This document shows positions 9,966-53,985 of a stretch of 64,000 nt of DNA, piece by piece. Position numbers and translations under genes: made by a program. Source of the stretch: Segetibacter sp. 3557_3 (GTDB lineage: Bacteria > Bacteroidota > Bacteroidia > Chitinophagales > Chitinophagaceae); the NCBI RefSeq assembly GCF_004354985.1, contig NZ_SMSK01000004.1, positions 310,001 through 374,000 of the forward strand, in the 5' to 3' direction. Within the stretch, counting starts at the first letter, position 1. Each line of letters opens with the position of its first letter. The notes under the pieces are model-generated. The model ran no database searches. It was given only the letters and a program-made list of their open reading frames with translations, and was not told the origin of the DNA.

Positions 9966-10222
9966 TTCGATAAACCTCATAATTCCCCATCCGCAATGCG
10001 CAATCCGCAATCCGCAATCAAGACATCTGCCCTCAATACCCAATACCTTAATACCTCAATACCACATCCCCCATCCGCAATGCGCAATCCGTATCATCTA
10101 CCCTCAATACCCAATACCTCAATACCTCAATACCCAATCTCCAATCCGCAATCCGCAATCAAGACATCTGCCCTTAATACCCAATACCTTAATACCTCAA
10201 TACCCAATCCCAATCACCCCAT
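9966..10222. repeat. Degenerate CAATACC / GCAATCCGC repeat tract
   Basis: About 250 bases are built from short imperfect words: GCAATCCGCAATC, AAGACATCTGCCCT, and runs of CAATACC alternating with TTAATACC and CCCAATACC. The block containing CAATCAAGACATCTGCCC followed by the AATACC run occurs twice (10014 and 10156 onward). Similar AATACC tracts occur at 36657-36720 and twice in 53.38-53.98 kb, so this is a dispersed intergenic family. It lies just downstream of the leftward serine-hydrolase gene. It is open as a frame but clearly not a protein. Confidence 0.85.
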
Positions 10223-10246
10223 ATACTTTACAACGACACCTGATTG

Positions 10247-36656: not shown

Positions 36657-36720
36657 ATACCAATTACACTTCCATCAATACCTCAACACCTCAATACCAT
36701 TACCTCAATACCCAATCCCT
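36657..36720. repeat. CAATACC-type repeat tract inside the exporter operon
   Basis: A short run of ATCAATACCTCAACACC, TCAATACC, TACCTCAATACCCAATCCC between the HlyD and TolC genes. It uses the same words as the tracts at 9966-10222 and 53.38-53.98 kb. Confidence 0.8.
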
Positions 36721-44066: not shown

Positions 44067-44981
44067 ATGTTATTAAGAAAGAACATTCCGATTCACTACA
44101 TCATCGGTAAAATAAAGGTTGAACTATTGACCATAACCATTTATGCACTCGCCATTGCTGCGTTGTATGAATATTTCAACCTTTCGCGTATTGTATTGCC
44201 TTTGTCTGTGCCGATGATTATGGGTACCGTAATCTCGCTTCTGCTGGCATTCAGATCAAACCAGGCTTACGACCGCTGGTGGGAGGCGCGAACCGTATGG
44301 GGAGCTATCGTAAACGACAGCCGCACACTGGCCAGACAAATTAAAACGCTGAGCAAAGAAGCGTACCAGGGCGATGACCTGTTCTTTTTTAAACAACGTT
44401 TTATCAAAAGGCAGATCGCCTGGTGTTACAGCTTATGCAAAACGCTTCGCAACCAAAATGCTGAAGAAGGCCTTGACCGGTTGCTGGCAAAAAGAGATAC
44501 TCAGCATATATCAAACTACAGCAATATTCCTATGGCTTTGCTCGAGTCGCATGGACATGATATCCAGCAGGCGCTTGAAAATGGCTGGGTGAACGAATAC
44601 CAGCAGGTGGAGATCGACAAAACACTTACCCGGCTCTGTGATGCGATGGGAAAATGTGAAAGAATTAAAAACACCATATTCCCCGCAACCTATGGCTTAT
44701 ACATTCACTTTTCGCTGATATTCTTTTTTACGCTGTTACCCTTTGCGTTAATAGAAGTTTTTGGTGTCCTGCTTTTTATTCCTGCACTCGTGGCAATAGC
44801 TACAGTTTTTTTCCTGATCGAAAAGATGGCCATCCATTTACAGGATCCGTTTGAGAACAAACCAACGGATACGCCTATGACCGCAATCTGTGCAACAATT
44901 GAAAGGGACCTTAAGCAGGTGATAAATGAAACTGCCCAGTCTGCAGTTCCAAAAAACAAAAAAGAATTCTACCTGCTTTAG
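44067..44981 (+). CDS. Bestrophin-family (UPF0187) anion channel
   Basis: 304 residues with helices near 23-36, 45-62, 208-232 and 235-255 and the family hallmark FRSNQAYDRWWEARTVWG (about 66-83). Prokaryotic bestrophins form pentameric ion channels in the inner membrane. The helix-rich cytosolic segment and the tail (MTAICATIERDLKQVINE) fit the family. It follows the UspA-like gene closely and ends at a strong terminator. Confidence 0.92.
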   Translation: MLLRKNIPIHYIIGKIKVELLTITIYALAIAALYEYFNLSRIVLPLSVPMIMGTVISLLLAFRSNQAYDRWWEARTVWGAIVNDSRTLARQIKTLSKEAYQGDDLFFFKQRFIKRQIAWCYSLCKTLRNQNAEEGLDRLLAKRDTQHISNYSNIPMALLESHGHDIQQALENGWVNEYQQVEIDKTLTRLCDAMGKCERIKNTIFPATYGLYIHFSLIFFFTLLPFALIEVFGVLLFIPALVAIATVFFLIEKMAIHLQDPFENKPTDTPMTAICATIERDLKQVINETAQSAVPKNKKEFYLL

Positions 44982-45091: not shown

Positions 45092-45137
45092 ATCCTCAGC
45101 AATCCCGTTGTTAAACGGGTTGCTGGGGATTTTTTTT
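45092..45137 (+). terminator. Intrinsic terminator after the bestrophin gene
   Basis: A long near-perfect stem pairs ATCCTCAGCAATCCCGTT (45092-45109) with AACGGGTTGCTGGGGAT (45114-45130), one wobble pair and one bulge, followed by a T-run (45130-45137). It directly precedes the hairpin array. Confidence 0.9.
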
Positions 45138-45146
45138 GATTGCCGA

Positions 45147-45604
45147 TGCAGGTGTTGTCACCTGCAGCCACCACCCGGCGCCGTTGCAGGTGTTGTCACC
45201 TGCATCACCACGTGTCGTCATGCGCCGTTGCAGGTGTTGTCACCTGCAATCCACCCGCCCATGCTGGTGTTGTCACCCGCCGTTGCAGGTGTTGTCACCT
45301 GCATCACCACGTGTCGTCATGCGCCGTTGCAGGTGTTGTCACCTGCAATCCACTAGCCCATACAGGTGTTGTCACTCGCCGTTGCAGGTGTTGTCACCTG
45401 CAACACCACTAGCCCATGTAGGTGTCGTCATGCGCCGTTGCAGGTGTTGTCACCTGCAATCCACTAGCCCATGTAGGTGTCGTCATGCGCCGTTGCAGGT
45501 GTTGTCACCTGCAATCCACTAGCCCATGTAGGTGTCGTCATGCGCCGTTGCAGGTGTTGTCACCTGCAACCATCCTTTGCCACTTGCAGGTGTTGTCCCC
45601 TGTA
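45147..45604. repeat. Tandem array of TGCAGGTG-TTGT-CACCTGCA hairpins
   Basis: Nine exact copies of the 20-base palindrome TGCAGGTGTTGTCACCTGCA start at 45147, 45185, 45229, 45284, 45328, 45383, 45439, 45494 and 45549; a diverged tenth is at 45585. Spacing is mostly 55 or 44 bases. Degenerate half-copies (GTAGGTGTCGTCATGCG, TACAGGTGTTGTCACTCG) lie between many of them, so the higher unit is palindrome plus degenerate palindrome. Each copy can fold into an 8-9 bp stem with a TTGT loop. Linkers are conserved rather than unique, so it is not a CRISPR. All reading frames through it are repeat artefacts. Confidence 0.9.
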
Positions 45605-45688
45605 CCTGGGTTTAGAATCCCAATCATTATACACCTAAGGAAATCGGGTTCAACCATACTTTATCCGGTTCATTAAATTTACCCGTTA

Positions 45689-45696: not shown

Positions 45697-45784
45697 AAGT
45701 TGTCCGCCGATTACCTTGTTTCAGCACTGCCAAGCTTTGTTGATTGCGGAAGTCTTTTTGATACATAACCGAAATAAATTACTA

Positions 45785-46936
45785 ATGACCAGGAGACACC
45801 ATTTCACATTATTTATGCTTGCAGTTGTCCTACTGCTTTCCGCGTGTAGTAGCCGAAGGCTGACCAAAGCACCTATTCAAACTTCAAAAGCTGAAGTGCT
45901 GCAAATAATCGATAAAGTAAATGGTTACTGGCAAACAAACAATCCTCCAACTGCACGAGCGTTTTGGGACGTGGCGGCATATCACACCGGCAATATGGAA
46001 GCTTATGCAGTTACAAAGAATCCGGTATACAAACAGTATTCAGAAGCATGGGCGGAACACAACCGGTGGATGGGCGCAAAATCGACCAACAAAGCGGAGT
46101 GGAAATATACTTATGGAGAAAAGGATGACTACGTGCTTTTCGGCGATTGGCAGATTTGCTTTCAAACTTATGTTGACCTATATAACCTGGACAAGTACGA
46201 CAAGAAAATAGCACGGGCACGGGAGGTAATGGAATACCAGATGAGCACCGACAGGAATGATTACTGGTGGTGGGCGGATGGACTTTATATGGTGATGCCC
46301 TTAATGACCAAGCTCTACAAAGCCACGGGTAATGCTCAGTACCTTGAAAAGTTGCACCAATATTTTCAATATGCAAACAGCATTATGTACGATGGTGAAA
46401 CGCAGTTGTATTACCGGGATGCCAAATATGTTTATCCCAAACACAAAAGTGCAAATGGCAAGAAAGATTTTTGGGCGAGGGGAGATGGCTGGGTTTTCGC
46501 TGGCTTGGCGAAGGTGTTAAAGGACCTGCCAACAAATGATCCCCACAGGAACGAATACATTGCCAAATACCAGGGGATGGCAAAGGCAATCAAAAATTCG
46601 CAGCAGGCAGCGGGCTACTGGACAAGAAGTATGCTTGATCCGCAACATGCACCCGGACCCGAAACTAGTGGCACCGCTTTCTTTACCTACGGCATGTTAT
46701 GGGGCATAAACAATGGGTACCTGGATCGGAAAGAATACCTGCCTGTTGCGGCAAAGGGCTGGAACTATCTTACGAAAACCGCCCTTCAGCCAGGTGGTAA
46801 AATCGGGTACGTGCAGCCGATAGGAGAGCGGGCAATACCTGGCCAGGTGGTAGATGTAAACGCTACGGCAAATTTTGGTGTTGGTGCTTTTTTGCTTGCT
46901 GCATGCGAGATGTACCGGTACCTTGATAAACCCTAA
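45785..46936 (+). CDS. GH105/GH88-like unsaturated uronyl hydrolase lipoprotein
   Basis: 383 residues from the ATG at 45785; the longer upstream frame adds 23 residues before the signal. Lipoprotein signal MLAVVLLLSACSS. The alpha/alpha-barrel pattern with WAEHNRWMGAK, VLFGDWQICFQTYVDLY, the acidic aromatic stretch DYWWWADGLYMVMPLM, FWARGDGWVFAGLAKVL and PETSGTAFFTYGMLWGI matches GH105 rhamnogalacturonyl hydrolases. It would remove unsaturated galacturonic acid from lyase-made pectin fragments. It stands alone, distant from the lyase-GH88 cluster. Confidence 0.88.
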   Translation: MTRRHHFTLFMLAVVLLLSACSSRRLTKAPIQTSKAEVLQIIDKVNGYWQTNNPPTARAFWDVAAYHTGNMEAYAVTKNPVYKQYSEAWAEHNRWMGAKSTNKAEWKYTYGEKDDYVLFGDWQICFQTYVDLYNLDKYDKKIARAREVMEYQMSTDRNDYWWWADGLYMVMPLMTKLYKATGNAQYLEKLHQYFQYANSIMYDGETQLYYRDAKYVYPKHKSANGKKDFWARGDGWVFAGLAKVLKDLPTNDPHRNEYIAKYQGMAKAIKNSQQAAGYWTRSMLDPQHAPGPETSGTAFFTYGMLWGINNGYLDRKEYLPVAAKGWNYLTKTALQPGGKIGYVQPIGERAIPGQVVDVNATANFGVGAFLLAACEMYRYLDKP

Positions 46937-52675: not shown

Positions 52676-53335
52676 CGTGGTGCGTGGATAGTGTTTGAGC
52701 GCTGGATAAAGTTCGCGATAAATGGAAAATGCATTCAATAATGTAAAATGCAAAATGCAAAATGTAAAACGGTGCAGTGCGCGAATAAAGTCAAAAGTCA
52801 AAATTCAAAATAGTTCCCGAGCGTGGAGGTATCCTGGGCAAATCAAAAATGCATTATCAATAATGTAAAATGCAAAATGTAAAATGTAAAAGGGTGCAGT
52901 GCGCGAAAAAAGTCAAAAGTAAGAATTCAAAATAGTTCCCGAGCGTGGATGGTGTTCTGGGCTAATGGTAATGCCTTCTCAATAATGCAAAATTAAAAAC
53001 GAAAGATGTAAAAGGGTGCATTGCGCGATATAATTCAAAAGTCAAAAGTAAAAATTCAAAATATGTTCCCGAGCGTGGAGGTGTCCTGGGCTAATCAAAA
53101 TGCATTTTCAATAATGCAAAATGTAAAAGGGTGCAGTGCGCGATTAAATTCAAAAGTCAAAAGTAAAAATTCAAAATAGTTTCCCGAGCGTGGAGGTATC
53201 CTGGGCTAATGAAAATGCATTATCAATAATGTAAAATGCAAAATGTAAAATGTAAAAGGCTGCAGTGCGCGATAAAGTCAAAACTCAAAAGTAAAAATTC
53301 AAAATAGTTTAAGTGAATGGTGTTACGAAAGCTGC
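52640..53335. repeat. A-rich tandem repeat array (units of about 115-130 bp)
   Basis: The unit has four parts: a GTTCCCGAGCGTGGAGG block with ATCCTGGGC, an ATGCATTATCAATAATG block, runs of TAAAATGCAAAATG, an AAGGGTGCAGTGCGCGA block, and the tail AAAGTCAAAAGTAAAAATTC. Block CCCGAGCGTGG starts near 52816, 52939, 53068 and 53182, with a diverged copy near 52675. The array begins inside the 3' end of the preceding gene. There are no open frames with domain support; it is non-coding. Confidence 0.9.
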
Positions 53336-53370: not shown

Positions 53371-53540
53371 TTATCAACTTCTCCCCTCAATATCTCAATA
53401 CCCAATACCTCAATACCCGATCCCCACCAATCAACTCCCCCCAATACCTTAATACCTAATCCCAACCCATCAACTTCCCTGAATACCCCAATACCCAATA
53501 CCTCAATACCCTCCTCTGCGTAACCTCCGCTTCTCCCATT
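53360..53540. repeat. TTATCAACT and CAATACC repeat tract, first copy
   Basis: Short tandem words: TTATCAACTTATCAACTTC, then CAATACC runs with CCGATCCCCACCAATCAACTC and CCCAACCCATCAACTTC. Same vocabulary as the tracts at 10.0 and 36.7 kb. Confidence 0.85.
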
Positions 53541-53825: not shown

Positions 53826-53985
53826 ATTCAACTTATCAACTATTCAACTTATCAACTTCTCCCCCAATACCTCAATACCTTATTACCCAATCCCTACCAA
53901 CCAACTGCCCCAATACCTCAATACCCAATTCCCACCAGTCAACTTATCAACTTCTCCCCCTAATACCCATCCCCGCTTCCCAACC
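53815..53985. repeat. TTATCAACT and CAATACC repeat tract, second copy
   Basis: TTATCAACTATTCAAC repeated, then CAATACC runs, GCCCCAATACCTC and ACTTATCAACTTCTCCCCC. It follows the second segmental copy as the first tract follows the first copy, so a unit of about 450 bases seems to have been duplicated. Confidence 0.85.

Follow-up and report, generated by a model that had tools for sequence, protein, structure and literature searches.

Introduction

The repeats described here are probably, judging from sequence features, of the same kind as those accompanying subclass 2.6 of the TnpA-REP (RAYT) proteins, their closest match. In the account given in PMC6006769, this subclass is mostly from Bacteroidetes, its proteins are ~179 aa long with NH[LIV]H and YIH[QN]NP motifs, and its genes are flanked by "atypical secondary structures" without GT[AG]G, copies of which occur elsewhere in the genome. 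As far as that description goes, the likeness lies in the Bacteroidetes hosts, the non-GTAG hairpins around the gene, and the genomic copies. There are also differences from PMC6006769: the structures are called weaker there than canonical REPs, whereas the hairpins of the close clade considered below are mostly perfect; in the proteins of this clade WE or WQ is present, and YIHxNP takes residues other than those of the YIH[QN]NP of subclass 2.6; and the genome studied here has no RAYT match.

Other described systems share some of these features. The REPs and REPINs of P. fluorescens SBW25 are likewise intergenic, RAYT-linked hairpins in many copies, and the same report describes tandem REP arrays, in some of which a single REP type recurs at even intervals (PMC3116915); in comparison with that report, no RAYT was found here and inverted pairs are not the rule, with a single orientation at 19 of 20 places. 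Stenotrophomonas and Marinomonas have perfect-palindrome REPs which, as presented in PMC8266576, likewise combine a perfect stem with a tag 5' of the hairpin, but their tag is GTAG and the transposases are others. The CGTC families of PMC3733652, which include Bacteroidetes members, resemble the present hairpins in stem (8-9 bp) and loop (4-5 nt), and GTAG- and CGTC-tagged REPs lie between unidirectional and convergent genes, as here; head-to-tail dimers are reported there as absent or rare, in contrast to the head-to-tail, GCC-tagged units described below.

Non-GTAG REPs beside Bacteroidetes TnpA-REP genes (PMC6006769) and tandem REP arrays (PMC3116915) are already on record in those papers. 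We claim no priority for the hairpin sequence, subclass 2.6 being known here by description, not by its hairpin sequences. Searches for REP together with Chitinophaga, and for the core string GGTGTTGTCACC as text, gave no paper in the literature searched, and none of the matches listed for palindromic repeats in Bacteroidetes was relevant.

The array lies in a 64,000-nt stretch of the Segetibacter sp. 3557_3 genome ("the window"). From its sequence and those of relatives we conclude that it very probably consists of repetitive extragenic palindromic (REP) elements belonging to a Bacteroidota clade of RAYT/TnpA-REP proteins (rough probability 0.85); RAYT is a transposase that acts on single strands. 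Two features are out of the ordinary: searches of its own genome turned up no RAYT, and the copies stand in direct tandem arrays whose linkers differ from locus to locus.

Structure of the array

Nine exact copies of the 20-nt palindrome TGCAGGTGTTGTCACCTGCA start at 45147, 45185, 45229, 45284, 45328, 45383, 45439, 45494 and 45549 (start-to-start spacing 38, 44, 55, 44, 55, 56, 55 and 55), and a diverged tenth occupies 45585-45604, as a first-pass annotation of 45147-45604 had correctly described. The "half-copies" which it placed in the linkers are present, but turn out to be 22-nt units that have kept the tag, 5' arm and loop and lack the 3' arm. A full unit is laid out as GCC, six stem bases, GGTG-TTGT-CACC and six complementary bases. 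Cutting the array before every GCC gives 15 head-to-tail units. The exact palindrome is present in nine of these, a further one is diverged and the other five are truncated:

44067..44981, + strand: upstream neighbor, outside the element, bestrophin-like (PF25539, E 2.5e-63)
45142..45606, + strand: putative REP array, 15 GCC-started head-to-tail units
45142..45179, + strand: unit 1, full hairpin, exact palindrome 45147-45166
45180..45223, + strand: unit 2, full hairpin 45185-45204, with part of a truncated unit
45224..45256, + strand: unit 3, full hairpin 45229-45248
45257..45278, + strand: unit 4, truncated, 22 nt, core GGTGTTGTCACC kept
45279..45322, + strand: unit 5, full hairpin 45284-45303, with part of a truncated unit
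45323..45355, + strand: unit 6, full hairpin 45328-45347
45356..45377, + strand: unit 7, truncated, 22 nt
45378..45411, + strand: unit 8, full hairpin 45383-45402
45412..45433, + strand: unit 9, truncated, 22 nt
45434..45466, + strand: unit 10, full hairpin 45439-45458
45467..45488, + strand: unit 11, truncated, 22 nt
45489..45521, + strand: unit 12, full hairpin 45494-45513
45522..45543, + strand: unit 13, truncated, 22 nt
45544..45578, + strand: unit 14, full hairpin 45549-45568
45579..45606, + strand: unit 15, diverged hairpin 45585-45604, tag shifted outward by one base
45716..46936, + strand: downstream neighbor, outside the element, glycosyl hydrolase family 88 (PF07470, E 9.1e-91; ATG at 45786)

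Unit lengths that are multiples of 11 nt occur in this array and in no other of the genome. The window holds 22 matches to the 12-nt core with up to two mismatches, 12 lying inside the array; the number expected for the window is 4.6, and none of 100 shuffles reaches 22. The folding energy of a 27-nt unit is -11.6 kcal/mol, and the region 45140-45604 stands far from its shuffles when folded as DNA (z = -10.3) and as RNA (z = -6.95). The linkers repeat and there are no unique spacers, which rules out a CRISPR, as the first reading of the sequence had also held. Within 45108-45676, four ORFs of 82-128 aa arise by chance from the array; CRCCHLQ or AGVVTC is abundant in them, and they could be misannotated as proteins.

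Copies across the genome

The array had been said to sit alone. This is so inside the window; genome-wide, the 6.75 Mb assembly (35 contigs) holds 41 exact 20-mers and 86 cores GGTGTTGTCACC, against 0 for a reversed control pattern. These cores were grouped into 20 places, the sequences of which were all examined: 17 clusters of 2-13 cores and three single cores. Two of the latter, L044 (inside a called ORF) and L040 (with hardly any stem outside the core), are probably chance occurrences. Like REPs, then, the element is a short palindrome (20-40 nt) in many copies. It is also largely extragenic: by a rough ORF call, eight clusters lie between unidirectional genes, eight between convergent and one between divergent genes, so that 16 of 17 have the setting expected of REPs, while called ORFs of 97 to 234 aa touch four clusters (L029, L036, L038 and L039).

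Exact cores share one orientation at 19 of the 20 places, nearly all of them head-to-tail, and the inverted REP pair that makes up a REPIN is not the unit here. The sole array with exact cores in both directions (four and three) is L030. Linkers are more alike within places than between them (mean similarity 0.51 versus 0.38), and so are units (0.86 versus 0.78); the arrays may therefore have grown locally, as is also suggested by the direct tandem order taken together with the locus-specific linkers.

Mis-assembly of tandem repeats can occur, and one might ask whether the whole array is a slippage artefact or assembly error with no biological source. The 17 clusters have differing linkers, however, and the same 27-mer recurs in unrelated assemblies (see below), which reduces the probability of such an artefact to a negligible level.

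Conservation of tag, loop and stem

A tag 5' of the hairpin foot, a further hallmark of REPs, is conserved among the cores of this genome: G, C and C are found at -9, -8 and -7 from the core in 74, 78 and 74 of 86, although 24 of the 86 lack a GCC up to 5 nt from the computed hairpin foot. Counted over distinct hairpins, GCC is in register in 49 of 66 from this genome versus only 32 of 56 from other genomes. The tag is thus GCC, not the GTAG or CGTC of known families. The TTGT loop is present in 86 of the 95 GGTG-NNNN-CACC sites at the 20 places, and 14 of the 86 cores have no pairing beyond GGTG/CACC.

Stem covariation was evaluated in 120 distinct 27-mers (66 from this genome, 56 from elsewhere, two shared), with loci L040 and L044 of this genome and L104 and L116 of others left out; the set was picked by exact core, hence its four inner pairs are invariable. 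Paired cells made up 83.8% of these hairpins versus 73.4% in shuffles, and double changes 143 cells versus 62. The covariation score was 0.279 compared with 0.114 for shuffled sets, none of 500 reaching it, and 0.082 for the best slid version. Pairs with any double change showed no excess (6 versus 5.5 shuffled), and pair types a slight one (24 versus 21.1); in this genome alone, pairs 3, 4 and 5 were above every shuffle, and pairs 1, 2, 6 and 7 were not. The excess could reflect kinship, palindrome-templated repair or selection, which are indistinguishable here.

The outer stem pairs covary, then, while the loop and the GCC position stay fixed. RAYT proteins are described as binding a folded single strand with the help of the tag at the hairpin foot (PMC6006769, PMC8266576); for perfect-palindrome REPs, loop bases are also used, and in those of Stenotrophomonas and Marinomonas loop positions are crucial for the transposase (PMC8266576). 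By analogy, the fixed GCC and TTGT would be consistent with a RAYT binding both tag and loop.

Another possibility is that the hairpins are structured RNAs or mRNA elements, cut from a transcript or stabilizing it. The strong RNA fold, the stem covariation and the location of the places, mostly 3' of genes, would all suit this reading; the DNA fold is at least equally striking, however, an Rfam search of the locus gave no family (two matches were far below gathering scores), and the hairpins flanking RAYT genes in relatives, discussed below, would go unexplained. We consider it very improbable.

Distribution in other genomes

A search of Chitinophagaceae genomes for the repeat had been proposed from the sequence. 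The 20-mer was found in two of ten genomes of the genus and a 16-mer in two of 195 of the family, both counts including the Segetibacter genome itself. Cores in 244 family genomes numbered 86 in this genome, 32 in G131, 23 in G231, 7 in G157, 4 each in G059 and G207, and no more than 3 in each of the remaining family genomes listed; the other nine genus genomes have 0 to 2 each. The bestrophin orthologs of G006 and G002 (78 and 77% identical) have no array beside them, because these genomes hold 0 and 1 cores, the one being far away. A clean empty site beside the bestrophin gene was not seen in either: the G006 stretch ends just past the gene, and in G002 other DNA follows.

An 18-mer scan of genome_contigs, from which records of this genome were possibly left out, gave 36 stretches, sorted by eye into 25 with the element and 11, all singletons, that were dropped as chance. 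All 25 are from Bacteroidota (Mucilaginibacter, Foetidibacter, Marinoscillum, Ferruginibacter, Parafilimonas, Cytophagales UBA10427 and CAN_BIN01), and seven of these loci, in Parafilimonas, Cytophagales UBA10427 and CAN_BIN01, have exactly the same 27-mer, GCCGTTGCAGGTGTTGTCACCTGCAAC. A direct tandem array is also present in Mucilaginibacter RYN_333 (L096), a genome with RAYT matches. The 18-mer had no matches in viral_contigs, nor had the array any among plasmids and phages.

A conserved palindrome in tandem, stopping ~180 nt ahead of the ATG of the GH88 ORF, might also be expected where a regulator or chromosome-organizing protein has clustered DNA-binding sites, upstream of this gene and at others. 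A symmetric double-strand site would have no need of the conserved loop and one-sided GCC, however, and here the outer stem changes pairwise; only one of 17 clusters lies between divergent genes, compared with eight between convergent ones, and nine relatives within the genus have 0-2 cores. A binding-site origin is very unlikely on these grounds.

Hairpins and RAYT genes in relatives

An ORF with NHIH and YIHDNP motifs in one relative (G016) is bordered by two hairpins of this kind and by a third that is inverted; its product matches NCBIfam NF047646 REP_Tyr_transpos (8e-21; 74.5 bits, under the cut-off of 80) and Y1_Tnp (PF01797; E 3e-4; score 21.2, under the cut-off of 23). A profile built from 19 relatives found a single PDB chain up to E 0.01, 4ER8 (TnpArep, 5e-9). 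The motifs of this close clade are similar to those of subclass 2.6, by motif comparison rather than a tree with reference members. Against plasmids, the RAYT query gave 5 records at 29-38% identity.

The 57 RAYT loci included 38 "close-clade" ones at E <=1e-30, the 19 above this being left out of the flank count. A hairpin was counted as REP-format when it had GGT[GC], a loop of 4-5 and four or more of six outer pairs; by this rule, one lies within 300 nt of 24 of the 38, on both sides in 21, versus four of 1400 control windows; the control loci include the window array itself (L175), so this control errs against the REP reading. Genomes in the family sample, not picked for hairpins, contributed 27 of the loci (16 with a hairpin, 15 on both sides), and genomes mostly picked for hairpins the other 11 (eight and six). 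At the other 14 of the 38, no hairpin of this format occurs up to 300 nt away. A core-free rule (perfect stem of at least 9, loop 3-5) gave 25 of 38 loci, 18 on both sides, with 24 of 700 in the control. Among 63 flanking hairpins, 50 have the tag in register, 41 of them tag-outward and nine not. Loops vary among RAYTs (TTGT, TTTT, TTCTT, TCCT, GCCT), and most flanking hairpins are of the form GTTGTTGGTG as opposed to the GTTGCAGGTG of the window, with two base pairs exchanged.

The same kind of hairpin thus flanks RAYT genes in relatives, as REPs do, and the stem type of the window itself is found at two such loci, both imperfect as direct links. In Mucilaginibacter PPCGB 2223 (L147), a hairpin with the window stem and loop is 42 nt from a RAYT match, but CAC instead of GCC precedes its stem, and GTTGTTGGTG-type hairpins are beside the same gene. 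At L152, in Marinoscillum furvescens, the RAYT is surrounded by five hairpins, three of them of the GCAGGTG type; the five cores share one orientation, and the hairpin nearest the RAYT is tag-inward. Because of these imperfections, our confidence in the REP reading was slightly lowered.

The first-pass annotation had offered four explanations without choosing among them. The expanding selfish repeat comes closest, the format being that of the REPs flanking RAYT genes in relatives; nothing here favors the protein-binding, RNA or DNA-topology options as an origin, and secondary roles for them are conceivable.

Some other arrangements were seen near RAYT genes. On contig C1 of G131 (L098, L099, L100 and L101), RAYT occurs in several copies, of which some are partial or interrupted by stops; each lies within ~100-300 nt of GGTGTTGTCACC hairpins. 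At L156, L167 and L168 (in G207 and G059), more distant RAYT genes are near a different hairpin, tttaagtt-TGC-aacttaaa, and its complement.

Search for a RAYT gene in the Segetibacter genome

A RAYT protein search gave matches in 159 of 244 family genomes, 58 of them below 1e-30 by hand count, and the Segetibacter genome was not among the 159. In a search of 21 genomes with the RAYT protein, 19 matched and this genome gave none; a RAYT profile search of it up to E 10, which included no positive control, found nothing. RAYT remnants were sought within the window, where there were none, and at the 20 places and three Y1 loci of the genome, where three short matches (E 0.03-0.05) appeared in a search whose positive control worked. 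The three IS200-like Y1_Tnp genes of the genome were considered as partners and rejected, with neither the core nor part of it nearby. A REPtron, with its RAYT gene in the same genome, was therefore not found, and the array is likely an orphan.

RAYT genes flanked by repeats assemble badly, and it may be asked whether the system is complete, with its RAYT hidden in one of the gaps that remain between the 35 contigs. The completeness of the assembly is given as 100%, however, and neither a RAYT match nor a remnant was found in this genome; we regard a hidden gene as unlikely.

Origin and persistence of the arrays

If the arrays are REPs, a RAYT would have recognized the folded single strand through tag and loop, spread copies to ~18 sites, and afterwards been lost from this genome. 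Each array would then have grown locally by tandem duplication, which would account for the head-to-tail order, the array-specific linkers and the truncated 22-nt units. The case for the enzyme comes from relatives, because no close-clade RAYT was found in this genome.

It is possible, though we hold it only tentatively, that the REP arrays have outlived their transposase: their perfect hairpins and local direct-tandem growth would be RAYT-independent, the latter proceeding by hairpin-driven slippage and palindrome-templated repair, and they may perhaps be kept for a host function. In support of this, Cytophagales UBA10427 (G252, a MAG) has the identical 27-mer and, likewise, no RAYT match; the tandem array of Mucilaginibacter RYN_333, in a genome with RAYT matches, argues against such arrays occurring only in orphans. 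A related suggestion is that these are REPs by origin now maintained for a host role such as gyrase or IHF binding, mRNA protection or termination, as reported in other bacteria and listed in PMC6006769. Perfect palindromes persisting without a detectable RAYT would fit, but the arrays appear young and genome-specific; it seems somewhat unlikely.

With the REP reading, Bacteroidota REPs could be given a sequence definition, GCC-N6-GGTG-loop-CACC-N6', tied to a RAYT clade that has strong matches in many Chitinophagaceae-type genomes, and such arrays could be annotated as REPs rather than as spurious proteins. Moreover, a genome with many intact-looking REPs and no detectable RAYT would be a natural test: do upkeep and tandem growth need the transposase?

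Other repeats in the window

Degenerate short tandem repeats of the CAATACCT type are present at 10001-10226, 36675-36720, 53385-53511 and 53863-53929 of the window, and their other-strand form, TATTGAGGTATTGGG, adjoins the hairpin arrays L026 and L033. An AT-rich tandem repeat of 115-122 bp, in about five copies, occupies 52726-53309.
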